From contig OU744451.1 of the NCBI GenBank assembly GCA_916610825.1, forward strand, positions 1,674,001 through 1,738,000: 64,000 nucleotides of DNA, in the 5' to 3' direction. Below the pieces are notes generated by a model. The model did no database searches. It was not told where the DNA came from and saw nothing but the letters and a program-made list of their open reading frames with translations. Below are positions 527-44,305 of the stretch, one piece after another. Position 1 is the stretch's first letter; every line of letters starts with the position of its first letter. The translations under genes and the position numbers were made by a program. Origin of the DNA: Haliclystus octoradiatus. Lineage: Eukaryota > Cnidaria > Staurozoa > Stauromedusae > Haliclystidae.

Positions 527-6514
<5,988 letters not shown>

Positions 6515-6954
6515 TATGGAATTTTGTATAATTGTTGAGCGCAATTAACTTGTATTATAATGATTATATGTAAACAATGAACTTTACTTAATTCTAATTC
6601 ATGACAATTATTCAGCGATAAACTTTCATAGTTGTTGTCCTCATACGACTGATTGAGGATGACTTAAAGGTTTTGATAAACATATTACGATAACGAAATA
6701 ATTATATGGTATTATACTTTGTAAAGATTTTACATAATTTTACATTGTAGTTTTGAATTTTGGATTATAAAATGAATTTACATTAAGCTCAAGCAATCAA
6801 TAAATTAAATTTCAGTTCATTTTTAAGGTAAAATTGTCAAATGTTTTGTTATGTTCCTCGGATTACGGTTGATGGTTCTATATTAGAATATAATAGTATT
6901 AGTAGTACAAACAAGTCACATTGTAGGGTTGTGCCATCTCTCTTTCTCCTAACA

Positions 6955-7300
6955 TATTTTCATCATAATCATTTATTCAGAAACCTGATAAGTTTTACAA
7001 TAACTTTTTTCACAGGACTGATTTACGTAATAAACTAGAGAACAAACATAAAATAATTGATTACAATAATACATAGATATATATATACAGCTACAAGGTT
7101 AATTAAATACGAACTGAACAGTCAAGATGCTGTAATTTTATTGGTATTTAAATGCTTCTCAAGGAAACTTTTGAAACTTTTCCTTTTGGAAACCTCCTTC
7201 ATTGTAGACGGTAGATCAATGTGGACATTCCACTTGTGAGCACCAGCATATTGAAATGAGTGGCGATGGCTTGTCTTGATGTATATGTCATTATGGGGTT
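6955..7300 (-). mobile_element. LINE 3'-end fragment
   Basis: Nearly collinear with 47480-47790, which on the minus strand encodes the C-terminus of a non-LTR reverse transcriptase. The shared stretch includes AACCTGATAAGTTTTACAATA and CAAGGAAACTTTTGAAACTT. A further scrap of the same sequence follows at 7693-7760. Broken, not functional. Confidence 0.7.
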
Positions 7301-7581
7301 TCTACGAAAACAACGCCAAAAATCAAGATCAGACTGTCTCAGTGTCCATATCCTCGACAAAACGTCTCCTTCGGGGGGTCACACAGTGGCTGTGAAACAT
7401 ATATAATATATACGATGTTGATCTCTCGACATGACCTAACAAAGACATATGACGTTGATAAGCCACATTAGAGGGAGAAGGATGAGGTTTTTTTAAATTG
7501 AGCAGGATCTTGATGGAGAGTATAAGATTACTTCGCAGTCTTTAATTGTCACTGCTACTGTAACTTAATTGGCACATCCTA

Positions 7582-7692
7582 TAGCCTGCTCGCAGACTCA
7601 CTGTCGAAATGTTAACATGAATAAACAGTATTACAAACTTGTCTACTGTTCTACGAAGTTCACATTTAGACAGTGAGTATGCGAGCAAGCTA
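7582..7692. mobile_element. Short MITE with ~31-bp TIRs
   Basis: Left arm TAGCCTGCTCGCAGACTCAC... (7582-7612) and right arm ...GTGAGTATGCGAGCAAGCTA (7662-7692) are reverse complements with a few mismatches. It separates two LINE-related scraps. Confidence 0.65.
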
Positions 7693-8076
7693 TGTGCGCA
7701 CCAGCATTTTGAAATGAATGGCAATGGCTTGACTTGATGTAACTGTCATTGTGGGCGTTTGACGTATGTCAATGTAATGTCAATGTAAATGTCATTGGAT
7801 TTTGAACTACCATATTTGAAAGGCCTTGATATTAATCATATACAATAACTGGTTATAGTTTAAGATCTACTCCACGGAAGAAAGACATTGAAGTTGCTGC
7901 AGTAGTAAGGTCAAAAGAATCGTTACCCGTAACAGCGAGAGGTATTGTTGAGGCTTCATTATTGTGTCCAGACGACATCATAACCAGAGAAGGTTCATGT
8001 GTGTTCTTGTTATAATGATGCGCGATATAATATCTCAATACACTATTTTATTTACACCTTTTAAATTTTCGAAAAC

Positions 8077-8312
8077 TGCTCCGCACTCCGTGTCTCCGTT
8101 ACTCATCGAATAGAGACTACCGGAGAGCCTGTTTATTGTCAACCGCGACGCTTACACCCTCAAAAGCTGGCTGTAGCACGCGCTGAATTTAATAAATTAT
8201 TAGATGCAGGTATTATCAGACCCTCAAATTCACCATGGGCAAGCCCATTACATCTTGTTCCTAAACCGGAGCCAGGAACCTTACCGCGCCCTGTTGGTGA
8301 TTATCAAGCAGT
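8077..8312 (+). pseudogene. Ty3-type retrotransposon pol fragment
   Basis: Conceptual translation gives the N-terminal lead-in of a Ty3-type reverse transcriptase: HRIETTGEPVYCQPRRL, then a leader helix ending LLDAGIIRPSNSPWASPLHL and VPKPEPGTLPRPVGDY. The GDYR motif is degraded (GDYQ) and similarity stops soon after. No LTRs or other pol domains are nearby. An old scrap. Confidence 0.75.
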
Positions 8313-8872
8313 AATTCGAATTCAAATCAATGTTTTACTACAGTGGAGCTGAAATTCAAATAGAAGCTACGCACATCAGTCAACGCACATCAATACATCC
8401 GCAACAGAAATCATAACAGCAAATCGAGCCACGCCCATGGGTGTGGCCAACCCTGCTATAACGTACCGTACATCAGCAAATTAATGTATATCATTCCGTT
8501 TTTCTAGTATTCGGTTCTTTACTAAATAAATGAGGGGGTTTATTTCAATTAGTAAAGTATTTATAAGTGAAAGTTCATTGTGGGAAAGGTCAAACAATTT
8601 TTAGTATAATTTGTATGAAGACCTGAATTTGTAAAGCACCTCTATTAGAGTTATGTAGGCCTATGGAATTTCAATACGAAAGAAATAACGAAAGCACGGC
8701 CTAAGACATTTCAAATGTACATTGCATGAAATTAAAAAACCTTTTATTCATCAGTTATCCGATTTCTATACTAAACTATTTGTTTTGATAATACTCTCTT
8801 GATGGTATGGTGAAATGATTTTTGTCTAATCATATGCATGACTACGTATGGTTTTCATCTGTATCAACTTCG

Positions 8873-12100: not shown

Positions 12101-15100
12101 ATTCATATATATATTTGTAAAGTATGTCGCATTTCAAGAACACATCAGTTATCAATAAATTAAAGTTAAAGTCTTTGTTGTTGTTAATTACCTCTGTTAT
12201 TTAAATTAACTCAGCGATGCGGGTGACTTTACAATAGAAATTTACAAAATATTTACATTATAGAAAAAAAATAACTAATTATCATAATTAATCTAAATTA
12301 TGGAGTGTAATACATTAATACATTATTTAACACTGAATGATATCAATATTAATTTCACTGAAGAAGCTAACGAAGGGCAGCGAAAATATTTTGATATAAA
12401 TTTAAATTTTTAAATTAAATGTATATTATCTAATCACACTGTTGTTATAGTTGTTGCGTATTATTAGAATGGTTACCAAATTACCCAACTACAGTTTATC
12501 TTACAAAACACGAGATCATATAAAGGTTTTGATAAATCAATTAAGTCATTATATAACAAAAAAGGCTAATTTATTGAACAAAGAGCCTGGATGTAATGTG
12601 CGATAAAAAACAAATTTCTAATCGGTATTGAACACTATCATATCTAGCCTGCGTAAAAGCCCCAAGGTTTATTTCTAAAACCATAGGGTCTGTGAATTAA
12701 TGTCTGATTTTCAGCCCAATAAGTTCCCATGAGTTTGGAATATAATTTATGCATTACGTCGTATTATCATTAAAGTGGGAATAAACCCCCAGACTATCTT
12801 TACATATGTAGTAGAACCCGACGTGAAAAAAACAATGGCGTAATTTTTTTTTCGATCTGGAAATTATTTCTTGGTGAAAAATGCCTCCAAAGTGGTGTTT
12901 TGACCCAAATGTCGCTGAGGAAAAAAAAGGGATTGGATCTAGCTTTATGACGACAAAGTCACAAGTCGTGTGGTTTTTCTAATAGACTTTAGATCGGATT
13001 AATCACGCGATGTTACGTTTGAGATGGCGTAGCTCTGTAACGGCAATCTGTTTTTCTCTCCCACAAAACTGAGGTAAGGAAAAACATATAAACTTAAGAG
13101 CAGCAAAATCCCAGATGATTTAATGATTTTAAAGTTCACGAATTTCAAGAAAATAAAAATCAGAAAATATTTCATTCGTAGCGCGCGTTATACAGATTAT
13201 ATTTTGACATATCACTCTCACACATATTTAACACATATCAAAATATTCTCTGGTGACCACAAAAGCTAGCTAAGTAACTTCTGCACTGTATTACCGCATC
13301 CTATAAACTACAGATTGTGACGACATGATGCTAACATGTTCCACTTTCTAGCCGAAGGAATGGAAACTAGACTGGTAAAATCACTTTGTGGCGTATGTAT
13401 AATCAGGAACGAGACTTCACATTGCAAAACCCTAATTTTGTTAATCAGATAACTTTGATAGAGAGGATAATAATTTATGCAATGAAGATATACCCCAAAA
13501 CCGACAAATGATAAAGAATCTGCATTACTGTAGTTCTAGTATACGGCTGTAAACTTGAATAAGAACGTCCGATCCCTCTATCATGTAATGTACTGAAGAA
13601 TTCTCAATGGTACTTTGTTAGACTATAGTATTGAGTATAATATATCTATCTATACAGTCGTATAAACTATACGATTACATGGTTTAAGTTTTACTATACA
13701 AACATCAATTTTAAACTTTAACGTTGAAATGATAATAATGAAAAATGTCTATTTAATAATTTAGTAATACCGGTACTTGAATAAATCCGAAAAGGTATAA
13801 TTAAAACTTTGCAGACCAACTATCTTGAGGAAAAGTCGTCTGTGCATGCCCATGCAAATCAAGTCAGTTTATATTCACATTTAGATCATGAAAAGGATAT
13901 CCTGTAGAAATATTTACTCAAGAACAACTTGCAGATCATAGAGTTAAAAATAGTTAAAACTTATATAGCGTAAGATCAAGCTATTTTGAAGGGCACTTGT
14001 CTACTAATTAAGATTTGAGAAGTACTGCGGTCACACAGAATACGTAACTAATATGTGTCACTAGACTAGTCACAAAGGAACACTCGCACTGCCTGACATT
14101 TGTGTTAATCCGCAATCTATATCAGATTCATCGCGCTTAATGACGCTACGAGAAATTATTTATCGAGAGATTATCAATCCAAGGTACACTTATTAATCTA
14201 CACCTATTACAAAATAAACTGTAGGACTATGATAATTTATCAACAAGGCAATTGATATCATAAGACGGATGCAGGGCATGCTCCAATAACTAGGTTTTCA
14301 GAAGACGCACCATCACGCCACCACGTGCTTCATCATGGACCACTTGATGAAATCATTGAACATTTGCCAATTGATATGAAACACAGTTCAGCATATTTTG
14401 TCCTCAATGAATTATCAATATATATAGGCACTGTTACATCTAACTATTGGATATTTTTATTGCAAGTATACTATGTTTTCGTTACCTTTTATTTTATTAT
14501 TGATTTTATTTTAACCCTTGATCGAATTTCGAACACTGAAACGAACATCTCGCCAAAAAATTCAAACTTTTTTATATGAAAAAGACGCTCCAAAACACAT
14601 CTCCGAGTAGGGATACCTACAGTGAGTTTTTCGGCATTTATATGATAGAAAATTCTTGCAAACAATTTGAGAAAACTTAACATTTTTTGAACTGATTGAT
14701 GAACACTTTCAAATATTTTCAAAACTCTGAATTGAAGAGGAAATACCATTCCTTTTCCAATCAAGGCTTGCTTTTTCGATACTGACTCGGATCCCCGTGT
14801 CTCCGGACATACCCTCTCGGTGCGTCGCTCTGATGAGTTTGCTTTAGCCAACGGGTTTTAACCTGGGCTCTCGACAAACGAAACGCGTCAGCCTGATTTT
14901 ATGCGCGCCGAACTCCAAACTGCCTTGCTCAGTATCAAGCGCGAAAATGTAGAATCAGTGGGGGACACACAAGATGGTGTCCACCCTAAAACTATGAACT
15001 ATACAAGAAACACCAAAACAACTCCTATAGCCCCAGTCATGTCATGGGATGGGCGGATATCACTTCTAACCAACTGGTCCTATCTCACATCACTCTAAAT

Positions 15101-18100
15101 CAGACATAACAAATGTAAAACAATTAAATCGTCCATTGACTCAATGGGAACCTGATAACGAGATATGAACACCTAAAACAGAGACCACCTGTCTACAACG
15201 ACTAATATGGTTCTCCAAAGGCAAGATATAATAAATTAACACATCATTACAAAATCACGAACAGAATATTAACGTTCAGGACAGTGAAAGGCAAATGAAG
15301 CTAACTCCCAGAGGATCACAACAGACATCATACCAAGGTAATAATAGTAATAATTAATAATTAAAATAAATATACACAGGATGTATTAACAATATAAATA
15401 TGTAACAGCACACAGAACAGCAGCGGATCAGCATAACCCAACCAATAAAATCTACACCAAAGGCCGTATCTGGATCCAGACAAATTGAGAACATCAACTG
15501 ACTTCTCTAAAACCAAGTAAAGACCCTAAAACATAAATTAGAATTAATAAATCGGAAAAATAATACTAAAAATTTAACAGGAAAATCAGTAGGCAAACAA
15601 AAATACTAACATAAAAACGAGACAGGATCAATGGAGCAGTGATATCCAATACCCCTAATGACATGAAGGTATAATCCTGAATGATAACAATTACTGGATA
15701 GAATCAAACATGATATAATGATCACCTCAATATAGTGATCACCTCTCTTAATGACCACTAATCCAATGCCAAAGAATAGTGTCTTATATAATAGTTTCAC
15801 TGTAGCTATATAACATTAATTTTGTACAATCAGTGATATACAACAATCAGATAGAGAAACAGTCCGTTATAATTACTAGGACAGTAACACTATTCGAGAC
15901 ATGCAGCCTCCCTCCCAACCATCACACACCCATAAAGAATCAAGGGTTAGTACCCTTTCCCATGAGGGACGTTGAAGGTTAAAACTGTAGTAATGTCAAT
16001 GGAACGAACATTCCATTGATAGTTACTATTTAGGAAACAAACAGATGATATTCACTTTCAGCCACCCCTCTACCCGCGCCAGTCCAATATAAATATAAAT
16101 ATAAATACAATTATAATCATTATATGGTCCATTATAAGTACTATCTACACCACCTTATCCCAGCTCGCTACAGACACACTCAATACAGCATCAAGGTCAG
16201 CACCCTTTCCCAGGAGGAAAGTCCAAAGTTAAAACTGCAGTACTGTTAGCGGAACGAACATTCCAATAATAGTTACTAATTAGGAAACGAACAAAAAATA
16301 CTAACCACATTGCCCAAAAAAACACTGCCTTATTCCAACTTTTTCACAGAAACACTCATACAGCAACAAGGGCTAGTGCCCTCTCCCATGAGGGTCGTTG
16401 GAAGTTCAAAGGATAATTTCCATTAGGGAAACCGTCTTTGAAATACTTCCAGTTACCCCTCTACCCATGTCAGTCCATTCTCTTTCTCATTCCGTCATAT
16501 TCACCTTTAATTTGCAGACCCCCAGAAAATAGCCTCTTTCCCATAGATCCTTTTGAAACATTAACACAATGTAGATAATTGACCGTGTGATACCCATCTG
16601 CACGATACATAAACCCAACACATTATTCTTGACCAACAGATAACTATGGAGGCATCTCAGGATTCAATATCTATTTTCCAGTTGGATAACGATGAAATGG
16701 AAATCGACCCAATTTTTGACATTTCAAAGAAAAAGGAAGAAACATCCAGTAAGGCATCAAATCAAGCTTCCAATACCAGGATCACACCACAAACACCCAG
16801 CAAATCCAATCAATATAAAATCCCAAAAGTAACAGGAACCAAGGATGCCCCAAAACAGCCAACACTTACTAATTCCAACAAAAATAAGACCTTGAGAACA
16901 ACAGAAACCATCAAAAAATCCCACAAACAAACCGGAACCAGCAAAATAACAGCAAATGCCAAAAAACCGTCACCTAAGAAAACCCCATCCCGAAAATCTC
17001 CCCAACCGTCATCCCCAAAAACAAATAAACCCTCGGAAGAAGAACCCCTAACAAACCAACAATCTGAAACTCTTCCTTCCATTCAAAATCTGAACATTAC
17101 CGATCAAAATCAACCACCCCAAGAACGTCCCTGCCCCATGGAAGTGACCAACCTTAGCCAGGAACAACCCCTAATCTCCATCACAGATTTAACCACCACA
17201 AATAACCAATTCAACACTAACATAAACAGCAAAACCTTCCTCATACCAACCCTTATCTCAACTTCCAACCACTATATCACAAACACAGATCTCATCTCCT
17301 TCTTCATAAAAATCCTAACAATTCTTAACCTACCCCACAACAACATCCACCCAACAAAACTACCCCCCTCCCACACAAAGAAACCCCTGGACCCTGAGCA
17401 CCGACTCCCCACATTTATAGCAGACATTAAAAAATTATTAACGTCAATAATTAACTTTAATTTCCTAAAAGAATGTATCGACAAAAATATCCCCTGGAAT
17501 ATCCAACCAGAGAAAACCTGCCCCCCTCCCTCTGACCTTACACCTGATCTCCAAGAATCTTTCAAAAGGAAAAGAGACAAACACCTAGAAAAATCCTTGA
17601 TCGGCCTGAATAGAATAGCCTATGAACAATACACTGAACACCTCCCCGCTCTTGCCCGCCGTATGCTACACACCTATAATGACCCATCTAGCCCCATTCT
17701 ATCTGACTCCCAACTCCAATCCTTTCTCCTTGTAACCTGGTGTAAAATTAATTTCGACCTTAAAAAAATAATTGAAAAGAAACAAAAAAATTTAATAGCC
17801 CTAATAATTCCTAAACCAAAACACCCTGACCACCAACCACCAACTAACATAATCCTGAATCAAGACTTCCCATCTGAAACCCCCCCAGCACCACTAATGT
17901 CACACCGCAATCAAATACCATCACTATTACAATTTAACCCATATTACCCCAGAAGCCACCATGATAACTCCCAATCACCACACTCATACTACCCACATAG
18001 ATATAGACCACGCCATCATTCCTCACGAAACCAACCATCTGGGACAACAAAACCATACGAACGCCGACACAGCAACTACCACAACTGAAAACAAAAGACA

Positions 18101-21100
18101 AAATGCCTACCATCTATACTCCATGTGAAATTACTAATCTATACTCTTTATATGCTCTATACTCTGTACTACAACCTATACTCTATTCAACATTATCAAT
18201 ATATATCCCTTCAACGAAACAAACTATCAGGATTACGTCTACCATAACCATAATCACTGGTATATAATTTAATAATTTATAATTTTATAATTTCATATCT
18301 ATCAAGTATCATTGATATCACTACTTTATCCTAATAAACGTTACAAAAGTTAGCAATGTTTAAGTTCTTCACCAATGTAATAATCTCCATAATCAACATT
18401 ACATTAAGTAATTCAGCATTATAAAATATTCTTTACTGTCAAACAAATTTATTTAATTACAAAAACTAACTAAAAAATCATTGATAATTTGATCATTGAT
18501 CATTGGTAATTTGATTTCAAATAACAATAAATTAGTAACAACAGAACACAATTTGAATATTTAATCTCTGTCTCAGCCAGAACATCTCTGTTTCAAACAG
18601 TCATCTCTTAGAACATTTGTTGAATACCTTTATTTAACAGATCATATGATGATATCATTGCAAAAAAGTAAGAAAGGAGGCAACAACAAGAAACACCATA
18701 CCCACCCTTACAATAGAGACCATAGATCACCATCAAAATCTCAACATCCACCTCGAGGAAAATCACTGAAAAGTTTTTTATATTACCTAGATGAACCACA
18801 TCATAACTATATGAAACACCTCCGCAACGACATCCATAAAACCCTATACAACACCCACAAACTTCTCCAACAGTCCGGCTCCATTTACCATGACCAAAAC
18901 ACTGCTCAAATTAAGACATTTCTCAATCAAATAACTCCCCCTCGAGTAGTTAACCTTAGTAATATCCCACTACCAAAAGAAACTCTAGAATTTTTAGAAC
19001 TGGGACCCAGTTTCTGTCCACACCCACCCAAACATGTCTTCCAGTATTCCTTGGAAAATGCATTCCAACAAATTAAAACGAAACTCAATAACCATCACAA
19101 GAAAGGCTCTTTTGGTACCACAACCCCACATGAACTCCAGTACCTAATAAAAAAACTCAGAACCCCGATTAACCTAGCGTACGAAGATATGGAGGAACGC
19201 TGCCAACAATCTAAGAGTATGTCACTACATACTCAAAAATTCTTAGATAGCCTCCACACACAAATCCTCTCCATACCTCATAGAACCCACATAGAAAAAC
19301 CTACATGTGACCAACAACATAAATCCATTGATCTAATCCATGAGCTACAACAAAAGTACCAACTCATAATCAAACCCGCAGATAAAGGAGGAGCAATAAC
19401 AATCCTCACAAAATCCCAATACATCGAAAAAGTACAAAAACACCTCCAGAACACCCAGACATACCAAAAACTATCCACCCAAGACCCAGAACAACGCTTC
19501 CGAAATGACCTAAATAATTTTTATGATAACCTAAAAAAACGCAAGATAATTGATGATAAAACCTATGACCTCCTTACTGATTACCCGACTTCTATACCTC
19601 CCCAATTCTATATACTACCAAAGATCCATAAGTTGGGCGCACCAGGCAGACCAATTATATCTGCCTGTACAGCACTAACTAACCCCCTGTCAGCTCTTAT
19701 AGACCACTATCTTAATCCCTTACGTAAATTGATCCCATCCCATATTGATAATACACCTCACCTCCTTGAAAAGCTAAAAGCTATAAAATTACCGGAAAGT
19801 TGTCTGCTTGTTACAATGGATGTCTCTAGCCTATATACTTGTATCCCACACAAAGAGGGCGTTGCAGCAATAAATACATTTCTACACAATAACCCAACAT
19901 CCTACCACGGCCCCCCAATCCCCACCTTACTAGCCATGATCAAACGAGTCCTAACAACCAACTACTTCCAATTCAATGAGGATTTTTATCTACAACTACA
20001 AGGCACAGCCATGGGAACAAGAATGGCACCAGCATATGCCGACATCTTTATGCATGTCTTCGAACAACAATTCCTAGAAACGCAGACCCTACTACCTATA
20101 ATATACTACCGATACCTTGACGACATCCTAATGATATGGCCACACAGCCCCTCCACCCTCACAGACTTCCATAATAACATTAACACCACCTGCCCACAAA
20201 TAAAACTCACTATGGAATCATCCAAAACAGATATTGCATTCTTAGATCTGAAAATCTATATTGATAAAGGAACGCTATCCACAGACCTATACCGTAAACC
20301 AACAGATACCAACAATACCCTACACTTCAAATCCTTTCACTCTCAAGCCACTAAAATAGGCATCGTCAAATCTCAAACAGCACGCTACTACCAAAATATA
20401 TCTGACCCTAAAATCCTACACATCAGACTTTATCTACTCTACCTTTCATTCATAGAGAGAGACTATCCATCCCTCGCCCTCCTCAAAGCTATGAAACTGA
20501 CACTTTCAAAACAGAAAAGTGAACAACCCTCACCAACAACATCCAAACAAATCCTACCAATAGTACTCCCATATCATCCTGACTTTGAACGACTCCTAAA
20601 ACCTATCTTTAAGAACTACTTAACACCGTTCCTAGAACAACAAATACAATTCTGTCGCCTTCAACCCACACTCACTTATAAACGGCATTTAAACATAAAA
20701 AACCACCTGATCCATACCAGGGACCAACTCCACTGTGAGCACTTCCGAAATCAACTTCAAAACAATGAATCAAATCTAGACACCCCCCCCCCCACATTGA
20801 TAACCTAGGCCATCCCTATCACCCTGAAATTAATGACTGAAGGAACGTCAAATATATCTCAATTACAATGCAACTCTTACTTATCAAACACTAACCCATA
20901 GATTCAGTAAATAGATCCACTATTCTACTCCCTCCATGGTACAAGTACCCACGTTATTTGACCTCGAACATAGGATAAATAAATAGACTCCTCAACTTCA
21001 GACCAATGCATCGAAAGTCGGCCAAAAACAGAATACTATCATGAGAAATAGAGAATGGCCATGGCAACATAACCAAGGAAATAACCAATGGATAAAAAAC

Positions 21101-24100
21101 TATGAGACATGAACTATATGAATAAATATATAAAATAGACATACCCACCTAATTATCTATCAATGTTAAAAATTTAAAAATACTGATAACAATCACATGT
21201 ATGTCACATCAGCCTACATTTAGTAGCTCCATACAATTTAATGTATTTGACTAATTGACTCCTATTTTCAAAAACCAGAGTCGTATATCTATATATTCAT
21301 AGCACTACAATTAAACAAGTTGATAACTGAAATATCAAGTTAAACAACGGATCACAACAAACAATAGTTATGAGTTCTTATATACAACAACATTAATTTG
21401 ATTATCTCTATATAACTTACAATATCAACAAAAAATAGCATGTATTGGTCTTAATTTCAAGATGATTAAAAAATATCAATAAATACCCTTCAGGCTACAT
21501 TTATTATCTTCAATTCGTATTTATTACAATAATAATTTGGAATTAAAATACTAGGCCTATTGAACCAGTTCATCGAATCCAAGAAACACAACAGAGCCTC
21601 ATCAAACACCCCCTATCAGACACTTTTCGGCTAGAACACATTTGAACCATAAACCAGCACACCAGATCCATGAGATACAGTAAAAGCTCATAAAACATTC
21701 TTATCTAATACCCCCCACTTTATACAATACACACAAGTAAAACAAACCCATGAAACACAAAATAATCCCATTAAACACCCCCTATCTGACCCCTCCCCAC
21801 TTAAAATACTTTTGAACCGTCAGTCAGCATAGCAGATCCATGAGACACAGTATAAGCCCACCAAACGCTTCTACCTGATACCTCCCATTTTATAACTATA
21901 GGCTATACCATCTCCACAAGTCCAAAAAATACAACAGAACCCCATCTGACATCTCCATATTTTAATAAGAAAACAGGCTCCAACAAACCAGCTAGACGAG
22001 AATTACAGCACATAATACCTCCTCCTAATCATATAATGCTATATGATTCTACCAACAGCAACAGCCCTAGGACCGTCAGGTGACCGAAGCCGAAGGAAAG
22101 ACAGTTAGAAAGACCAAGCCAAAGATACGATAAAACAATGATTTAAAAAACTTACCAGTGGACATTCCACTTTCCAATGTCCCCCAACAAACAATTCGTA
22201 GATGAATCCCGAACCATATACCCATGAACTAATAACAAAGTAATCCCAATTCCCAAGTAATTTAAGTTTAATAATACTCCATAAATACAATTCAGCTCTA
22301 CCATTTTGGATCCTATATTTAGGAATGTTCTGAATCCAATAAACCCGATCGGATCTAGCTAACGAACCTCTTTCTCGGAGCAGAGCCTCCTCCTGAGCCA
22401 AAGGATTTATAATCCTCCACCCAATAAATAACCATGACTACAACCAATGAACGAAGGGCAAATAAAATCGATAAGTACCTCGTGCTTGGCCTTAAAATTT
22501 CTCTTCCCGATTTATCATCACTAGAGTTAGTCAAAAGACACAAATCAAAAATTATTATCAAAATATCAATCCAAGGTACACTTATTAATCTACACCTATT
22601 ACAAAATAAACTGTAGGACTATGATAATTTATCAACAAGGCAATTGATATCATAAGACGGATGCAGGGCATGCTCCAATAACTAGGTTTTCAGAAGACGC
22701 ACCATCACGCCACCACGTGCTTCATCATGGACCACTTGATGAAATCATTGAACATTTGCCAATTGATATGAAACACAGTTCAGCATATTTTGTCCTCAAT
22801 GAATTATCAATATATATAGGCACTGTTACATCTAACTATTGGATATTTTTATTGCAAGTATACTATGTTTTCGTTACCTTTTATTTTATTATTGATTTTA
22901 TTTTAACCCTTGATCGAATTTCGAACACTGAAACGAACATCTCGCCAAAAAATTCAAACTTTTTTATATGAAAAAGACGCTCCAAAACACATCTCCGAGT
23001 AGGGATACCTACAGTGAGTTTTTCGGCATTTATATGATAGAAAATTCTTGCAAACAGTTTGAGAAAACTTAACATTTTTTGAACTGATTGATGAACACTT
23101 TCAAATATTTTCAAAACTCTGAATTGAAGAGGAAATACCATTCCTTTTCCAATCAAGGCTTGCTTTTTCGATACTGACTCGGATCCCCGTGTCTCCGGAC
23201 ATACCCTCTCGGTGCGTCGCTCTGATGAGTTTGCTTTAGCCAACGGGTTTTAACCTGGGCTCTCGACAAACGAAACGCGTCAGCCTGATTTTATGCGCGC
23301 CGAACTCCAAACTGCCTTGCTCAGTATCAAGCGCGAAAATGTAGAATCAGTGGGGGACACACAAGATGGTGTCCACCCTAAAACTATGAACTATACAAGA
23401 AACACCAAAACAACTCCTATAGCCCCAGTCATGTCATGGGATGGGCGGATATCACTTCTAACCAACTGGTCCTATCTCACATCACTCTAAATCAGACATA
23501 ACAAATGTAAAACAATTAAATCGTCCATTGACTCAATGGGAACCTGATAACGAGATATGAACACCTAAAACAGAGACCACCTGTCTACAACGACTAATAT
23601 GGTTCTCCAAAGGCAAGATATAATAAATTAACACATCATTACAAAATCACGAACAGAATATTAACGTTCAGGACAGTGAAAGGCAAATGAAGCTAACTCC
23701 CAGAGGATCACAACAGACATCATACCAAGGTAATAATAGTAATAATTAATAATTAAAATAAATATACACAGGATGTATTAACAATATAAATATGTAACAG
23801 CACACAGAACAGCAGCGGATCAGCATAACCCAACCAATAAAATCTACACCAAAGGCCGTATCTGGATCCAGACAAATTGAGAACATCAACTGACTTCTCT
23901 AAAACCAAGTAAAGACCCTAAAACATAAATTAGAATTAATAAATCGGAAAAATAATACTAAAAATTTAACAGGAAAATCAGTAGGCAAACAAAAATACTA
24001 ACATAAAAACGAGACAGGATCAATGGAGCAGTGATATCCAATACCCCTAATGACATGAAGGTATAATCCTGAATGATAACAATTACTGGATAGAATCAAA

Positions 24101-27100
24101 CATGATATAATGATCACCTCAATATAGTGATCACCTCTCTTAATGACCACTAATCCAATGCCAAAGAATAGTGTCTTATATAATAGTTTCACTGTAGCTA
24201 TATAACATTAATTTTGTACAATCAGTGATATACAACAATCAGATAGAGAAACAGTCCGTTATAATTACTAGGACAGTAACACTATTCGAGACATGCAGCC
24301 TCCCTCCCAACCATCACACACCCATAAAGAATCAAGGGTTAGTACCCTTTCCCATGAGGGACGTTGAAGGTTAAAACTGTAGTAATGTCAATGGAACGAA
24401 CATTCCATTGATAGTTACTATTTAGGAAACAAACAAACAGAATACTATCATGAGAAATAGAGAATGGCCATGGCAACATAACCAAGGAAATAACCAATGG
24501 ATAAAAAACTATGAGACATGAACTATATGAATAAATATATAAAATAGACATACCCACCTAATTATCTATCAATGTTAAAAATTTAAAAATACTGATAACA
24601 ATCACATGTATGTCACATCAGCCTACATTTAGTAGCTCCATACAATTTAATGTATTTGACTAATTGACTCCTATTTTCAAAAACCAGAGTCGTATATCTA
24701 TATATTCATAGCACTACAATTAAACAAGTTGATAACTGAAATATCAAGTTAAACAACGGATCACAACAAACAATAGTTATGAGTTCTTATATACAACAAC
24801 ATTAATTTGATTATCTCTATATAACTTACAATATCAACAAAAAATAGCATGTATTGGTCTTAATTTCAAGATGATTAAAAAATATCAATAAATACCCTTC
24901 AGGCTACATTTATTATCTTCAATTCGTATTTATTACAATAATAATTTGGAATTAAAATACTAGGCCTATTGAACCAGTTCATCGAATCCAAGAAACACAA
25001 CAGAGCCTCATCAAACACCCCCTATCAGACACTTTTCGGCTAGAACACATTTGAACCATAAACCAGCACACCAGATCCATGAGATACAGTAAAAGCTCAT
25101 AAAACATTCTTATCTAATACCCCCCACTTTATACAATACACACAAGTAAAACAAACCCATGAAACACAAAATAATCCCATTAAACACCCCCTATCTGACC
25201 CCTCCCCACTTAAAATACTTTTGAACCGTCAGTCAGCATAGCAGATCCATGAGACACAGTATAAGCCCACCAAACGCTTCTACCTGATACCTCCCATTTT
25301 ATAACTATAGGCTATACCATCTCCACAAGTCCAAAAAATACAACAGAACCCCATCTGACATCTCCATATTTTAATAAGAAAACAGGCTCCAACAAACCAG
25401 CTAGACGAGAATTACAGCACATAATACCTCCTCCTAATCATATAATGCTATATGATTCTACCAACAGCAACAGCCCTAGGACCGTCAGGTGACCGAAGCC
25501 GAAGGAAAGACAGTTAGAAAGACCAAGCCAAAGATACGATAAAACAATGATTTAAAAAACTTACCAGTGGACATTCCACTTTCCAATGTCCCCCAACAAA
25601 CAATTCGTAGATGAATCCCGAACCATATACCCATGAACTAATAACAAAGTAATCCCAATTCCCAAGTAATTTAAGTTTAATAATACTCCATAAATACAAT
25701 TCAGCTCTACCATTTTGGATCCTATATTTAGGAATGTTCTGAATCCAATAAACCCGATCGGATCTAGCTAACGAACCTCTTTCTCGGAGCAGAGCCTCCT
25801 CCTGAGCCAAAGGATTTATAATCCTCCACCCAATAAATAACCATGACTACAACCAATGAACGAAGGGCAAATAAAATCGATAAGTACCTCGTGCTTGGCC
25901 TTAAAATTTCTCTTCCCGATTTATCATCACTAGAGTTAGTCAAAAGACACAAATCAAAAATTATTATCAAAATATCAATCCAAGGTACACTTATTAATCT
26001 ACACCTATTACAAAATAAACTGTAGGACTATGATAATTTATCAACAAGGCAATTGATATCATAAGACGGATGCAGGGCATGCTCCAATAACTAGGTTTTC
26101 AGAAGACGCACCATCACGCCACCACGTGCTTCATCATGGACCACTTGATGAAATCATTGAACATTTGCCAATTGATATGAAACACAGTTCAGCATATTTT
26201 GTCCTCAATGAATTATCAATATATATAGGCACTGTTACATCTAACTATTGGATATTTTTATTGCAAGTATACTATGTTTTCGTTACCTTTTATTTTATTA
26301 TTGATTTTATTTTAACCCTTGATCGAATTTCGAACACTGAAACGAACATCTCGCCAAAAAATTCAAACTTTTTTATATGAAAAAGACGCTCCAAAACACA
26401 TCTCCGAGTAGGGATACCTACAGTGAGTTTTTCGGCATTTATATGATAGAAAATTCTTGCAAACAATTTGAGAAAACTTAACATTTTTTGAACTGATTGA
26501 TGAACACTTTCAAATATTTTCAAAACTCTGAATTGAAGAGGAAATACCATTCCTTTTCCAATCAAGGCTTGCTTTTTCGATACTGACTCGGATCCCCGTG
26601 TCTCCGGACATACCCTCTCGGTGCGTCGCTCTGATGAGTTTGCTTTAGCCAACGGGTTTTAACCTGGGCTCTCGACAAACGAAACGCGTCAGCCTGATTT
26701 TATGCGCGCCGAACTCCAAACTGCCTTGCTCAGTATCAAGCGCGAAAATGTAGAATCAGTGGGGGACACACAAGATGGTGTCCACCCTAAAACTATGAAC
26801 TATACAAGAAACACCAAAACAACTCCTATAGCCCCAGTCATGTCATGGGATGGGCGGATATCACTTCTAACCAACTGGTCCTATCTCACATCACTCTAAA
26901 TCAGACATAACAAATGTAAAACAATTAAATCGTCCATTGACTCAATGGGAACCTGATAACGAGATATGAACACCTAAAACAGAGACCACCTGTCTACAAC
27001 GACTAATATGGTTCTCCAAAGGCAAGATATAATAAATTAACACATCATTACAAAATCACGAACAGAATATTAACGTTCAGGACAGTGAAAGGCAAATGAA

Positions 27101-30100
27101 GCTAACTCCCAGAGGATCACAACAGACATCATACCAAGGTAATAATAGTAATAATTAATAATTAAAATAAATATACACAGGATGTATTAACAATATAAAT
27201 ATGTAACAGCACACAGAACAGCAGCGGATCAGCATAACCCAACCAATAAAATCTACACCAAAGGCCGTATCTGGATCCAGACAAATTGAGAACATCAACT
27301 GACTTCTCTAAAACCAAGTAAAGACCCTAAAACATAAATTAGAATTAATAAATCGGAAAAATAATACTAAAAATTTAACAGGAAAATCAGTAGGCAAACA
27401 AAAATACTAACATAAAAACGAGACAGGATCAATGGAGCAGTGATATCCAATACCCCTAATGACATGAAGGTATAATCCTGAATGATAACAATTACTGGAT
27501 AGAATCAAACATGATATAATGATCACCTCAATATAGTGATCACCTCTCTTAATGACCACTAATCCAATGCCAAAGAATAGTGTCTTATATAATAGTTTCA
27601 CTGTAGCTATATAACATTAATTTTGTACAATCAGTGATATACAACAATCAGATAGAGAAACAGTCCGTTATAATTACTAGGACAGTAACACTATTCGAGA
27701 CATGCAGCCTCCCTCCCAACCATCACACACCCATAAAGAATCAAGGGTTAGTACCCTTTCCCATGAGGGACGTTGAAGGTTAAAACTGTAGTAATGTCAA
27801 TGGAACGAACATTCCATTGATAGTTACTATTTAGGAAACAAACAGCTAAGTAACTTCTGCACTGTATTACCGCATCCTATAAACTACAGATTGTGACGAC
27901 ATGATGCTAACATGTTCCACTTTCTAGCCGAAGGAATGGAAACTAGACTGGTAAAATCACTTTGTGGCGTATGTATAATCAGGAACGAGACTTCACATTG
28001 CAAAACCCTAATTTTGTTAATCAGATAACTTTGATAGAGAGGATAATAATTTATGCAATGAAGATATACCCCAAAACCGACAAATGATAAAGAATCTGCA
28101 TTACTGTAGTTCTAGTATACGGCTGTAAACTTGAATAAGAACGTCCGATCCCTCTATCATGTAATGTACTGAAGAATTCTCAATGGTACTTTGTTAGACT
28201 ATAGTATTGAGTATAATATATCTATCTATACAGTCGTATAAACTATACGATTACATGGTTTAAGTTTTACTATACAAACATCAATTTTAAACTTTAACGT
28301 TGAAATGATAATAATGAAAAATGTCTATTTAATAATTTAGTAATACCGGTACTTGAATAAATCCGAAAAGGTATAATTAAAACTTTGCAGACCAACTATC
28401 TTGAGGAAAAGTCGTCTGTGCATGCCCATGCAAATCAAGTCAGTTTATATTCACATTTAGATCATGAAAAGGATATCCTGTAGAAATATTTACTCAAGAA
28501 CAACTTGCAGATCATAGAGTTAAAAATAGTTAAAACTTATATAGCGTAAGATCAAGCTATTTTGAAGGGCACTTGTCTACTAATTAAGATTTGAGAAGTA
28601 CTGCGGTCACACAGAATACGTAACTAATATGTGTCACTAGACTAGTCACAAAGGAACACTCGCACTGCCTGACATTTGTGTTAATCCGCAATCTATATCA
28701 GATTCATCGCGCTTAATGACGCTACGAGAAATTATTTCGACTGAGCGTTTCAATAGATTTTATTCTGCTCCTGAAATCACAAATTGTATCTTTTTTACGT
28801 AATTCACGAGTATATATGTTTGTTCATGGCTCAGCCTTGTCAGAATTTTTTTTTGTGTGACTTCTCGGAGCTAGGTCACCTCAAAGATAACGTCGCGTGA
28901 TCAGCCCACTCTTGAGTCTGTTAGACAAACCGCACGACTTGTGACTTTGTCGTCATAAAGCTAGATCCAATCCCTTTTTTTTCTCAGCGACATTTGGGTC
29001 AAAACACCACTTTGAAGGCACTTTTCACCAAGAAATAATTTCCAGATCGAAAAAAAAATTACGCCATTGTTTTTTTCACGTCGGGTTCTACTACATATGT
29101 AAAGATAGTCTGGGGGTTTATTCCCACTTTAAGATCATTGTTGTTGCTGATGAGTATGACGTGATTGACAAAGAGTTGTGATTCTATGACAATTGATTTT
29201 TTATGACAGTGTGTGAATTGAAGTGTGAATAATTTACCAAATTTATATAGGTGCTATTTTCAATGGGCTGAGAATCACACATTGGTTCACAGACCCTATG
29301 GTTTCAGGAGAAACCTCGGGGCTGGTACGCAGGCTATAACATATCTGAAGATAGATAAATCTGTCTTTATTCTTATAATATTATCATTATTAATATTATT
29401 TCACACAGAGTATAATTGCAAAATACGAAATATGGTCTATATATATATATGTCTCTTCTATCGCTGTCGTTGATGTCAAAATTGTGATTATGAATTTATT
29501 GTGAACGTATGATTAATTGCAGTTGCTGTACTACCAATATGTTTTAATAATAATTAAATGGTTGATTGATTATGATGTTGTGTATTTCAGGGTTTCAATT
29601 GCCATCGTTATTATCTTGATTGTACTTTGGCTTGTACTTGATACAGCTAGTCAACCAATCAGATTGATCTCGTTAGCAGGTCTTGCTGTTTATGTCCTGA
29701 TGGCTTATACATTCTCAAATAACAGACGTCAGGTATGTTGCATCTTGACCTGCTTTTCTGACAGATCTTTTTATCATATAGACTGTATGCGCATATGCGC
29801 TGAGTATTACATACTAAGTGTTTACACATAATACTGAATTCATTAAAATTGACAAGGGGGAATTGACAAATTGACAAATTAATTGACAAATTAATTGACA
29901 AATTTGGTAATTGACAAATGGATTGACAAAGGGGCAAAATTGACCGGCGACCGCTGCGAGCACGAGTTGAATTTATGCTTAGCGTAATTCAACCGTCTCG
30001 CTTTGAAACAATTGTTATACGCAGGCCTAACTTGTAATAAAATTCATGTCAACAATGAACATTGTGTTATAACAATAAGCGTGCACGTGATCCTAAGTGC

Positions 30101-33100
30101 GTAGCGCCTGCCGGTCATTTTTGCTCCTTTAAATCAATATTTATAAAGTGTGGTCACCTGTCATTACTCAAGTTTCAATGTTTTAAAATACTTGTCAATT
30201 GTCTAATTGTCTTGTTTGATAATAAAAATCTATTTGTTTTTTTTCTTTAAGCTCTATTTAAAAGATATTAAATTATTTCTAATAGTGTATTATGTAACTA
30301 TCTATAATTAAATAAGAATGGGCATAACAACTCCAAATTCAAAATGTATGCCTAATTTATTTGCTGTTATAAGTGCCTTAATTACTTTGCCAAGCTTTTT
30401 GACAAACGGGTGAATATATTTTGAGAAAAAAATCATTTGATAAAAATACCTTTCCCAATTTGAAAAACTTAGATTCAAAATTACTTACATCAATTTCGTA
30501 ATGCAATCATCGGTCCATATCTGAAGGCCATTTGTCTATAGCTGTGTATCTAGATCTTATAGATGACTTCTACAAATATATAGGTGGTTTGGTAAAGTTC
30601 AGCTTGCTATAGCAACCACCTCTATACAACAACCACCTATCTATATTAGCTGTGTATCTAGATCTTATAGATGACTTCTACAAATATATAGGTGGTTTGG
30701 TAAAGTTCAGCTTGCTATAGCAGCCACCTCTATACAACAACCACCTATCTATATTAGCTGTGTATCTAGATCTTATAGATGACTTCTACAAATATATAGG
30801 TGGTTTGGTAAAGTTCAGCTTGCTATAGCAACCACCTCTATACAACAACCACCTATCTATATTAGCTGTGTATCTAGATCTTATAGATGACTTCTACAAA
30901 TATATAGGTGGTTTGGTATAGTTCAGCTTGCTATAGCAACCACCTCTATACAACAACCACCTATCTATATTAGCTTTGTATCTAGATCTTATAGATGACT
31001 TCTACAAATATATAGGTGGTTTGGTAAAGTTCAGCTTGCTATAGCAACCACCTCTATACAACAACCACCTATCTATATTAGCTGTGTATCTAGATCTTAT
31101 AGATGACTTCTAAAAATATATAGGTGGTTTGGTAAAGTTCAGCTTGCTATAGCAACCACCTCTATACAACAACCACCTATCTATATTAGCTGTGTATCTA
31201 GATCTTATAGATGACTTCTACAAATATATAGGTGGTTTGGTATAGTTCAGCTTGCTATAGCAACCACCTCTATACAACAACCACCTATCTATATTAGCTT
31301 TGTATCTAGATCTTATAGATGACTTCTACAAATATATAGGTGGTTTGGTAAAGTTCAGCTTGCTATAGCAACCACCTCTATACAACAACCACCTATCTAT
31401 ATTAGCTGTGTATCTAGATCTTATAGATGACTTCTAAAAATATATAGGTGGTTTGGTAAAGTTCAGCTTGCTATAGCAACCACCTCTATACAACAACCAC
31501 CTATCTATATTAGCTGTGTATCTAGATCTTATAGATGACTTCTACAAACATATAGGTGGTTTGGTAAAGTTCAGCTTGCTATAGCAACCACCTCTATACA
31601 ACAACCACCTATCTATATTAGCTGTGTATCTAGATCTTATAGATGACTTCTACAAATATATAGGTGGTTTGGTAAAGTTCAGCTTGCTATAGCAACCACC
31701 TCTATACAACAACCACCTATCTATATTAGCTGTGTATCTAGATCTTATAGATGACTTCTACAAATATATAGGTGGTTTGGTAAAGTTCAGCTTGCTATAG
31801 CAACCACCTCTATACAACAACCACCTATCTATATTAGCTGTGTATCTAGATCTTATAGATGACTTCTACAAATATATAGGTGGTTTGGTAAAGTTCAGCT
31901 TGCTATAGCAACCACCTCTATACAACAACCACTTATCTATAGTGGTCACTCTTGGTATGTCTATTAAAACAAACCTGTATATATAGGTCACCTGTACATG
32001 TGGTCAGTTTATCTAGACGGTGTAGGTAGCTGCTACATAAAAGTTTTTCGGTACTACAACTAATTGTGTAACTATTTTACTGCAAATGTTTCTAACTAGA
32101 TGACATTTCCATTTTTAGGTACGATGGAGGCCTGTTCTTTGGGGTTTAACATTACAGTTCTTGTTTGGTGTTTTGATTTTAAGAACAAGACCTGGTTTCT
32201 TGGTTTTTGATTGGCTGGGTGATCGTGCCACAATATTTTTGAGTTTCTCTGATGCTGGTGCCAAGTTTTTATTTGGAGCAGAAACATATACACATCATTT
32301 CTTTGCATTCAAGGTATTAACTATTACCATATTATTCAGGCATGAGTGTCGAGCGTACCCATTCTTTTATACAGTGTCCGACAAAAGATTTGACGTTCTG
32401 AAATCTTGAAAAAAGGTCTTATTTCTTCCCTTTCCTTTTTTGTGCTAGCTTACCGGACTCTCAGTCCCAGAATTTCCCCATTATATCGAACCCTGTAGAT
32501 GACCAATGATTACAGAATAAATTGTGATAATGTTTTAAAAAATGATATAATTCATGTTTACAGGTTCTACCAGTCGTTGTGTTTTTCAGCGCATTCATTT
32601 ACATGGTGTATTATCTTGGTGTAATGCAAATCGTAATTAAGAAAATTGCATGGTTGATGCAAGTTACCATGGGAACATCTGCTGCTGAATCGTTAAATGC
32701 TGCTGGAAATATCTTTATTGGCCAGGTAATTTGAATTGCTTATATTATACAATATAGTTATTGTTCAATATACGCAATTACGCATGTACAGGCTCAGTCT
32801 TCTGGAATCCTAGAGGTATTTCAAGATTTTATTGTGAATATCTTTTGTTGATGTTTCTAATAAAACATTAATAATATCAATTTTCTTCTGAATTTTCTCT
32901 AGCCTTCTGTAATTTAGAATTCAAGGATTCCCACTTTTGGGAAAAAGTTTTACCTTTAGGAATTCTAAGGTTTGCTTTAAATTTTCTTCTGAATTTTGTC
33001 CCACAACATAACAAAAGAATCAATAAATAACTTCATGAATACAATATCCAATTTTAGTGGAGTCCAAGAGACTGGGACAGAATATTTTTTTTTTGCTGCA

Positions 33101-42997: not shown

Positions 42998-44305
42998 GGT
43001 TGCAAACCTTCGGCTTCTCTCAGAAAATAATGTGTTTTTAAATTCAAAAACAAAAGAAAGCTATGCTTTTCTTTATCATTAACATCTTGCGTTGTAAATA
43101 ATAAAATTCATTGTTTAACATACAGTATATTATTATCTTTGCCAATAAGAAAGAATTTAATAGGAATCTTGTTTTCTTTTTGAAGTTAATCCCTCGTCCC
43201 TTTCTGTGGCATGTTAGCAGCGAATTCTAATATTTCAGCATGATACAGTTTTGTGTTGATTACGCAACACAAAATGATCTTCTACCAACCGGATTCTTGT
43301 CCGGAATGTCACGTGACCGGAAAAGCCGACGGATTGTAAACCGTGCAACGAAATATCATTTTTACCGTTCTTTTTTTGCCTTTTTCACGGCATTAAAAAA
43401 TCTAAATGTATAGAAAAGAGTTATTATGCTATATGTATGCCATATATTTAAACCTCTTTCTAAATCGAGAAAATAAAAATAAGACTTTTCGAAAATATAA
43501 ATAACATGTTCAAAATGAAAACAGACATGGTTTAAAATAAAATATTTACAAACACTTTGCAATACTGGAATGTTTTAGATATACAAGCAGCTTATTCCTC
43601 AGTTGTGTTAGACTAAACATAATTGACAGTTCATTTGAAAATGTGCTAACAGCTGTATAAATATAAGAGAATGTGGTAAAACTAGGCGAGCGTGGGGAGG
43701 GGGTAATAGCGGTCCCGTTATCTCCTAGAATCATATACTGACGAGATACAATTATTTCATATTTCCCTTCAATACGATTTTATAGATATCAACAGAAATT
43801 TTAGTAATAGATTCATTTTCACAGTTCGTGGTGTGCAGCTTTTCATTTTAGATTATGTTTACCATTTTTTGGTAACATCTTATCTTAGTATTCCTTGCAT
43901 GACTTTTCAAAAGGAAAGGCCAAACATCTGCTTAAGAAAAAATTAAAATGACAATTGACAAAGGATCCATCTCTGCTAACATTTACATAAGAAAATCATG
44001 TGCAAAATATGTCTCAAAATTATAGAAATATGTTTTGATACTTACAACAAAGCTCGATATAGCCAATTAATTGAAGAAATTGTATCATTAAAAAAATAGT
44101 GAGATTATTTTTAAAAGTCGCGAAGCTGGGTTGTACTAGCAGCCGCTTGCCCGTTGACGGCGTATTTATTAGCCGCGCGGTTGATGGAAACGAGGAACAG
44201 CAACAGAGAGATTTCAAAGTTTTGCAAACCGAACGAGAGAACAAATTTTACAATGAAACTAATAATCCAACTGAAACCACTACTACACCAACTCATTTAT
44301 TTGAG
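42998..44305. other. Divergent intergenic region between Rab and CYB5R4
   Basis: Must hold the promoters of both genes. No TATA box, RNA gene or clear repeat recognised. The CYB5R4 frame stays open upstream to 44099, but without an ATG. Confidence 0.5.

Follow-up and report, generated by a model that had tools for sequence, protein, structure and literature searches.

How does a Penelope-like element (PLE) that lacks an endonuclease come to lie as a young array in the interior of a chromosome? We addressed this question at a locus of Haliclystus octoradiatus, using a stretch of 64,000 nucleotides (hereafter, the window) together with other copies in the same genome. Our main reading, to which we give a probability of about 0.6, is that an endonuclease-less two-ORF PLE was inserted very recently into a TIR transposon away from the telomere, through the break-priming cycle proposed below.

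Structure of the PLE array

The array comprises the following features, all on the + strand.

14162..14171: filler of 10 nt where the array begins at its 5' junction; by eye, it resembles the adjoining target bases
14172..16043: pLTR A, a 5'-truncated unit (unit 6521-8392)
14819..14910: hammerhead-ribozyme-like motif of pLTR A, with copies at +8392 and +11801
15974..16043, 24366-24435 and 27775-27844: 3'-terminal hairpin plus GGAAACAAACA, the putative start of reverse transcription
16044..24435: full unit, 8392 bp
16174..16293: second copy of the 3'-terminal 120 nt, diverged (82%) and lying in the 5' UTR
16646..18088: ORF1, 480 aa, without a Pfam match
18646..20808: PLE-type reverse transcriptase (RT), 720 aa, RVT_1 E 5.7e-14, GIY-YIG not found
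21026..22563: D1, between RT and pLTR B, without a long ORF
22564..24435: pLTR B, with one private base (23057 G)
24435..25972: D2, opening a 5'-truncated unit (unit 4983 onward) and sharing junction base 24435
25973..27844: pLTR C, the 3' end of the array, a direct-repeat match to A and B

The original prediction had given the order as pLTR A, ORF1, RT, D1, pLTR B, D2, pLTR C, and this order was borne out together with the spacing and near-identity of the pLTRs. The direct repeats start at 14172, 22564 and 25973 (spacings of 8392 and 3409), and repeats of such length are not attributable to chance. The three pLTRs, each 1872 bp long, vary at a single position (14665 A, 23057 G, 26466 A), and D1 shows 0 mismatches to D2 (21026-22563 against the copy 3409 bp downstream). 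The longest stop-to-stop frame within 20809-22563 is 110 aa. The proposed very young age and the head-to-tail arrangement of full and 5'-truncated copies with a common 3' end are likewise supported.

All three pLTRs in the window terminate in GGAAACAAAC followed by A. Because the base after the pLTR end is A at all 18 sites with an intact 3' end, that A is probably the last base of the element, and the array, with this closing A counted, probably extends over 14162-27844 (13683 bp). The window contains 0 N and thus no scaffold gap within the array; of the 10 other array regions examined, 3 contain runs of N.

ORF1, RT and the missing endonuclease

The RT appears to be of the Penelope type, as judged by the RVT_1 match and by 23% identity to a protein of the same genome that combines an RT with a GIY-YIG domain. 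The RT part of that protein matched the window element at approximately 19.3-20.6 kb (E 8e-26) as well as L031 and L032, whereas its GIY-YIG end (the last 133 aa) had no match in any of the three at E up to 10, in agreement with the predicted absence of an endonuclease. We used this search instead of a genome scan with PF01541, whose 16 matches are a weak test because most of the endonuclease-bearing PLEs found with the L044 protein are missing from them. The L044 protein itself had at least 58 matches (58 scored of 3245 candidates) at 49-100% identity, of which 57 reach the GIY-YIG end, and many are frames of 815-829 aa without stops.

The RT protein used singly had no match among PDB sequences, whereas a four-row RT profile retrieved 11 of them, with a best E of 7e-5; the majority were distant prokaryotic RTs. 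One scan of viral contigs found no relative. Among seven RT copies, synonymous and other changes were too few to judge selection.

No Pfam family matched the window ORF1 at E up to 1. When six ORF1-type proteins were scanned, three Pfam families were hit by one member each, with a best E of 0.031. Relatives of ORF1 were found upstream of other PLE RTs in the genome, defining two more families (B and C) with a related ORF1 and likewise without an endonuclease. ORF1 presumably has a role in the transposition cycle.

Insertion into a TIR transposon away from the telomere

The original prediction had missed both the TIR transposon that surrounds the array and the repeat that flanks it.

12774..29128 (no strand assigned): host TIR transposon, interrupted by the PLE array, with TTAA at 12770-12773 and 29129-29132
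13269..14161 (+): left flanking direct repeat, 893 bp (894 if 13268 A counts as target)
27845..28737 (+): right flanking direct repeat, 893 bp

The inverted arms of the host transposon are 98% identical over 161 bp, and its TTAA flanks suggest a piggyBac-like element. Two intact copies elsewhere in the genome (L029 and L030) are 1778-1779 bp long, are both flanked by TTAA, and each carry the 893/894-bp segment once. At the window locus, subtracting the array (13683) and one duplication (893) from 16355 leaves 1779, exactly the intact size. The two copies of the flanking repeat match perfectly (13268-14161 and 27844-28737, 0 mismatches).

The array starts at C7:1,688,162 on a contig of 26.96 Mb where CCCTAA repeats fill the first 300 bases, and thus lies 1.69 Mb from the telomere; the contig coordinates of the other copies are also interstitial. 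The window and loci L001-L047 together yielded a single TTAGGG doublet. Position therefore led us to reject a telomeric element.

Two features of this structure admit other histories. The 893-bp repeat might have arisen otherwise than by the insertion: as an older tandem duplication, by recombination between two insertions, or through an error in the assembly. That it is known at one locus only, and that 3 of 10 other array regions contain runs of N, would allow this, but we regard it as very unlikely: the repeat copies are identical, whereas the left part of the transposon differs from L029 at 13 of 1392 bases and from L030 at 17 of 1395; the 3' junction of the array is the same element end as at other sites; the lengths sum exactly to the intact transposon; and a second perfect duplication, of 89 bp, exists at L038. 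As for the array, two or more cDNAs joined at the fixed 3' start site fit best, and the local duplication that had been suggested is possible and not needed. Unequal exchange could have duplicated D1-pLTR B in tandem to yield D2-pLTR C without a separate cDNA, given that D1 and D2 are identical and pLTRs B and C are one base apart. We consider this unlikely, because the border of the duplication would have to coincide exactly with the element 3' end, because different partial units abut the 3' end in other arrays (7975 and 5463 on C6, 7079 on C2, 8224 on C4), and because the private base of pLTR B is absent from A and C.

A fixed 3' end and 5' ends at a predicted ribozyme cut

The original prediction had called for other copies in the genome and a comparison of their boundaries. 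Such copies were found, and at 18 of 20 insertion sites the 3' end falls on a common point, within about 2 nt. The terminal hairpin folds at -19.8 kcal/mol (pLTR B, 70 nt ending one base earlier).

Hammerheads of PLEs are described as minimal (PMC6155905, PMC7229834). The pLTR motif appears to be of this PLE kind, with a minimal helix III and with core and cut site present. It matched RF00008 in all three window pLTRs at 22.6 bits, below the gathering cut-off of 48.5. Its core is CTGATGAG..CGAAAC, with the predicted cut between 14889 and 14890, and the strict core occurs in 21 of 23 fetched copies covering the region (exceptions, L041 and L042). Rfam reported no hammerhead in L043 and L028 at E up to 5, although the core is kept, and none was found in families B and C.

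Of 20 5' ends that fall inside a pLTR, five are no more than 5 nt away from the predicted cut, compared with one in the densest other 11-nt window; a uniform model gives this a binomial P of 1e-7. Two of these five (C2:17841076 and C7:25122541) adjoin inverted pieces instead of target. This clustering suggests that ribozyme-cut RNA serves as a template, with the activity itself predicted from sequence. For the Anolis PLE (PAc), by contrast, insertion in vitro did not require cleavage, and no reads began or ended at the cut (PMC11167929).

Target sites across the genome

Three of the 20 insertion sites carry an exact duplication of their flank, one of 894 bp, one of 89 bp (L038) and one of 8 bp, and the flank matches of 2-4 bp at the other 17 were no more than expected by chance. 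In a control of 380 mismatched flank pairs, one reached 8 bp and none exceeded it. Most of the 17 sites without TSDs were judged from their own flanks. Long TSDs as a fixed property were rejected, since more than 8 bp was seen at only 2 of 20 sites, and a candidate 2-kb duplication on C8 was rejected because the site lies within a tandem repeat. In older copies, short TSDs may have decayed or the flanks may have changed.

In three other copies of the L039 target, the sequences flanking the insertion are approximately 0.6-0.7 kb apart; from these coordinates, the insertion seems to have replaced that much of the target. At L035, the target repeat ends at the junction in the other rows compared, and the coordinates of other copies suggest that the insertion joins unrelated flanks through a rearrangement. 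Given the irregular duplications, the deletion at L039 and the unrelated flanks at L035, insertion of this PLE looks like capture at broken DNA.

Two alternatives bear on these ends and sites. The 5'-end cluster might mark a transcription start site instead of cleavage; the two are indistinguishable from 5' ends alone, and the free single-strand fold (-29.8 kcal/mol) beats the hammerhead-forced fold (-18.6). We nevertheless think this improbable, since the cluster (pLTR 716-723) coincides with the cut predicted from the motif, 719 being the first base past it. The abundant endonuclease-bearing PLEs of this genome might also help in trans, their GIY-YIG endonuclease cutting the target and sloppy second-strand repair producing irregular sites. 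Many of them are intact, as the L044 matches attest, and the Anolis PLE protein cleaves both DNA strands (PMC11167929). Yet at 17 of 20 sites no TSD exceeds chance, and at the remaining three the lengths are irregular (8, 89 and 894 bp). For Adineta vaga, a study reports no evidence of preferential mobilization of endonuclease-deficient PLEs by endonuclease-bearing ones (PMC3846280). We judge cutting in trans rather unlikely.

A proposed break-priming cycle

Building on the observed anatomy, fixed 3' end, 5'-end clustering at the predicted cut and two long duplications, we infer priming at breaks and template jumping. Transcription would yield multi-unit RNA, part of which the hammerhead of each pLTR would cut at unit 7238/7239. 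The RT would begin at a single internal point, the hairpin plus GGAAACAAACA, primed by the 3' end of a DNA break that was already present, and would copy up to the 5' end of the RNA or halt early. It could also switch templates and resume at this start point on a further RNA, so that arrays build up from truncated and full units. Closure of the break by host repair would then leave a target duplication (893/894 bp at the window locus, 89 bp at L038), a deletion (~0.6-0.7 kb at L039) or a rearrangement (L035).

More tentatively, and with somewhat less than even confidence, we suggest that in this genome a diversified group of endonuclease-less PLEs spreads in chromosome interiors via break priming, that the pLTR ribozyme sets the 5' end of the copied RNA, and that copies of ~1.15 kb are complete products of ribozyme-cut monomers. 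If true, PLE spread would be decoupled from both the endonuclease and telomeres, and a telomerase-related RT could work as a break-repair retrotransposon in chromosome interiors. The 5' ends would then be a genomic footprint of in vivo use of the PLE hammerhead, whose part in transposition the Anolis study left open. With copies so young and so nearly identical, both the break-repair and the hammerhead points are testable.

Comparison with known elements

The window element has the pLTRs and partial tandem copies that characterize PLEs. According to a review (PMC6431247), PLEs have either one ORF (RT plus GIY-YIG endonuclease) or two ORFs without an endonuclease. Because the combination of ORF1 with an endonuclease-less RT is thus already described, the suggestion of a new lineage was not supported. 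Endonuclease-deficient PLEs (Athena and relatives; fungi, protists, plants) share with it the RT without GIY-YIG, two ORFs, and tandem and 5'-truncated copies (PMC6431247 and PMC3846280). However, Athena-type PLEs are described as transposing mostly at chromosome ends and as carrying telomeric repeats where their 5' end is truncated, whereas the sites examined here are interstitial and their junctions carry no telomeric repeats.

Canonical Penelope/Poseidon PLEs, such as PAc of Anolis, likewise have pLTRs from tandem units, a pLTR hammerhead, and an RT that starts within the RNA, at a fixed AC-rich site (PMC11167929). The window element differs from them in lacking the GIY-YIG domain, in its separate ORF1 and in its irregular TSDs.

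Endonuclease-independent LINE-1 insertions at breaks show absent TSDs, target deletions and filler bases, and the sites described here appear to share these marks of break capture. The LINE-1 RT family is unrelated, and the window element, in its ordinary form, has no such enzyme.

Array anatomy and chromosomal position

The original prediction of three near-identical 1.87-kb pseudo-LTRs (pLTRs) spaced 8392 and 3409 bp apart, with one substitution among them, was borne out by the repeat coordinates and by base comparison. A single base, private to pLTR B, separates the three over the 1872 bp compared, and the stretches preceding pLTRs B and C (D1 and D2) are identical. Features of the window are listed below.

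14172, 22564 and 25973: starts of the three pLTRs, 1872 bp each, direct repeats, spacings 8392 and 3409
30539-31941: 108-bp tandem repeat, 13 copies, 98% matches
44099-44551: 150-aa frame with a possible resemblance to a segment of a cytochrome b5 reductase 4 gene
1680-4702, 53815-53872 and 58955-61210: several short arrays on the palindromic 11-mer AGTTCATGAAC

In Pfam, the reverse transcriptase (RT, 720 aa) of this Penelope-like element (PLE; family A) matched RVT_1 at 5.7e-14, and ORF1 (480 aa) had no match. The genome comprises 262 Mb in 33 contigs, and the window corresponds to C7:1674001-1738000. Because contig C7 begins with CCCTAA repeats, which form its first 300 bases, the array lies ~1.69 Mb from a chromosome end. 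Two-ORF PLEs without endonuclease have already been described, according to PMC6431247, and PMC3846280 presents the transposition of endonuclease-less PLEs as largely confined to chromosome ends; the present group differs from the elements described there in occupying interstitial sites.

Copies elsewhere in the genome

A genome search for further copies and a comparison of their boundaries, proposed with the original prediction, recovered copies with varied 5' ends and, in most cases, the same 3' end. Ten array regions and eleven short copies were read against an 8391-base reference (16044-24434). Partial units with differing 5' ends adjoin one common 3' end in the array regions read, and all seven pieces starting at unit position 1, across the window and these ten regions, directly follow a unit end. 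Head-to-head inverted arrays occur in three regions, and three of the ten contain runs of N, where the order is less certain. Two loci, L041 (C10:2708600-2711600) and L042 (C10:2998600-3001500), carry the same 3'-truncated insertion between the same flanks, in inverse orientation, probably an inverted duplication ~290 kb apart.

Insertion sites

The window array sits inside a transposon whose terminal inverted repeats are 98% alike over 161 bp; this transposon occupies no fewer than 40 main places, the window among them (best 40 of 1465 candidates scored). It is intact in L029 (1778 bp) and L030 (1779 bp), with TTAA on both flanks. On each side of the array lies one copy of a perfect direct repeat (13268-14161 = 27844-28737); L029 and L030 each hold this stretch a single time, with the sequence continuing on either side, and the lengths balance (16355 = 1779 + 893 + 13683). 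The 5' junction of the array holds ten filler bases, judged by eye to be similar to the adjoining target.

Flank duplications were tested at 20 insertion sites, omitting C6 (N at the border), C4:31711 (unclear border) and L042 (one event together with L041); C8a and C8b, which have a common 3' junction, may represent one copied event. Duplications measured 894 bp in the window, 89 bp at L038, 8 bp at C8b and 2-4 bp at the remaining 17 sites. Since one of 380 mismatched flank pairs also reached 8 bp, and none was longer, the C8b duplication is borderline. The element's 3' end was intact at 18 of 20 sites (cut short in L037 and L041), followed by A in all 18.

Two sites without target-site duplication, L039 and L035, were compared with other target copies. 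In three other copies of the L039 target, the two flanks stand ~590-705 bp apart by coordinates, so this insertion apparently took the place of target DNA. For L035, other target copies match a single flank, ending at or before the junction. Such irregularities, here compared at two sites, are what capture at breaks would be expected to leave, although older copies could have been altered since insertion.

Hammerhead motif and 5' ends

Every window pLTR contains a Hammerhead_3 match in Rfam at 22.6 bits, under the cut-off of 48.5. Taking the motif as type I, with helix III of two pairs, gives the putative core CTGATGAG..CGAAAC and a predicted cut after 14889; PMC6155905 describes PLE hammerheads as usually minimal forms without helix III. 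A strict core was present in 21 of 23 fetched copies covering it, the exceptions being L041 and L042 (one event), with a single change just after CTGATGA. Several observations weigh against ribozyme-cut RNA as a template. Rfam searches of L043 and L028 found no hammerhead, although both keep the core, and the RNA folds much more stably when unconstrained than when held in the hammerhead form (-29.8 versus -18.6). In an Anolis PLE, ribozyme cleavage required the element's protein, and insertion did not require cleavage (PMC11167929).

For 5' ends, 56 rows were listed (best 40 of 106 candidates scored): 26 begin at the first base of the pLTR, ten that were secondary or came from internal repeats were set aside, and manual selection left 20 starts. 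Of these pLTR-internal starts, five (716, 718, 720, 721 and 723) fall within 5 nt of the first post-cut base, 719, whereas the next most populated 11-nt interval contains one; a uniform model gives P 1e-7, a rough figure. Three lie in unrelated flanks (L033, L034 and L035), and two adjoin inverted pieces (C2:17841076, in L009, and C7:25122541). The fetched cut-site copies span ~1.15-1.2 kb from the predicted cut to the fixed 3' start, the length expected if a ribozyme-cut monomer were copied from that point. The copy at C7:25122541-25123705, beside inverted pieces, is 87% identical, which suggests that starting at the predicted cut is old. Our confidence in capture at DNA breaks, with hammerhead-cut RNA as template and a fixed internal RT start, is moderate at about 0.58, reduced slightly by the two cut-site ends that adjoin inverted pieces and by the chance that C8a and C8b are a single event.

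Related elements

The RT search returned at least 63 matches (best 62 of 750 candidates scored). Among the matches listed, family B accounts for 12 at 53%, all but one free of stops, and family C for those at 38-39%. The family B locus L031 has a tandem unit of 6864 bp with an ORF1 of 512 aa, and the family C locus L032 one of 4251 bp with an ORF1 of 458 aa; an endonuclease was searched for in both loci and not found. At L032 (C8:1721500-1729500) the RT frame is open for ~1127 aa, so it may run across part of the asparagine-rich ORF1, which would then be read in a different frame. The right flank of L038 (C5:27941800-27945000) resembles L031 5186-5895, the stretch upstream of the family B ORF1 (75% over 739).

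ORF1 relatives gave at least 72 matches (best 89 of 107 candidates scored). Five relatives are 18-29% identical to the window ORF1, sharing a central section and having one end that is either basic or rich in asparagine; ORF1 may have a gag-like, RNA-binding role. The genome also carries many endonuclease-bearing PLEs, so help in trans for the endonuclease-less ones is possible. One array of stop-free endonuclease-bearing frames, many spaced 2629 bp apart, occupies C8:5689588-5720789.
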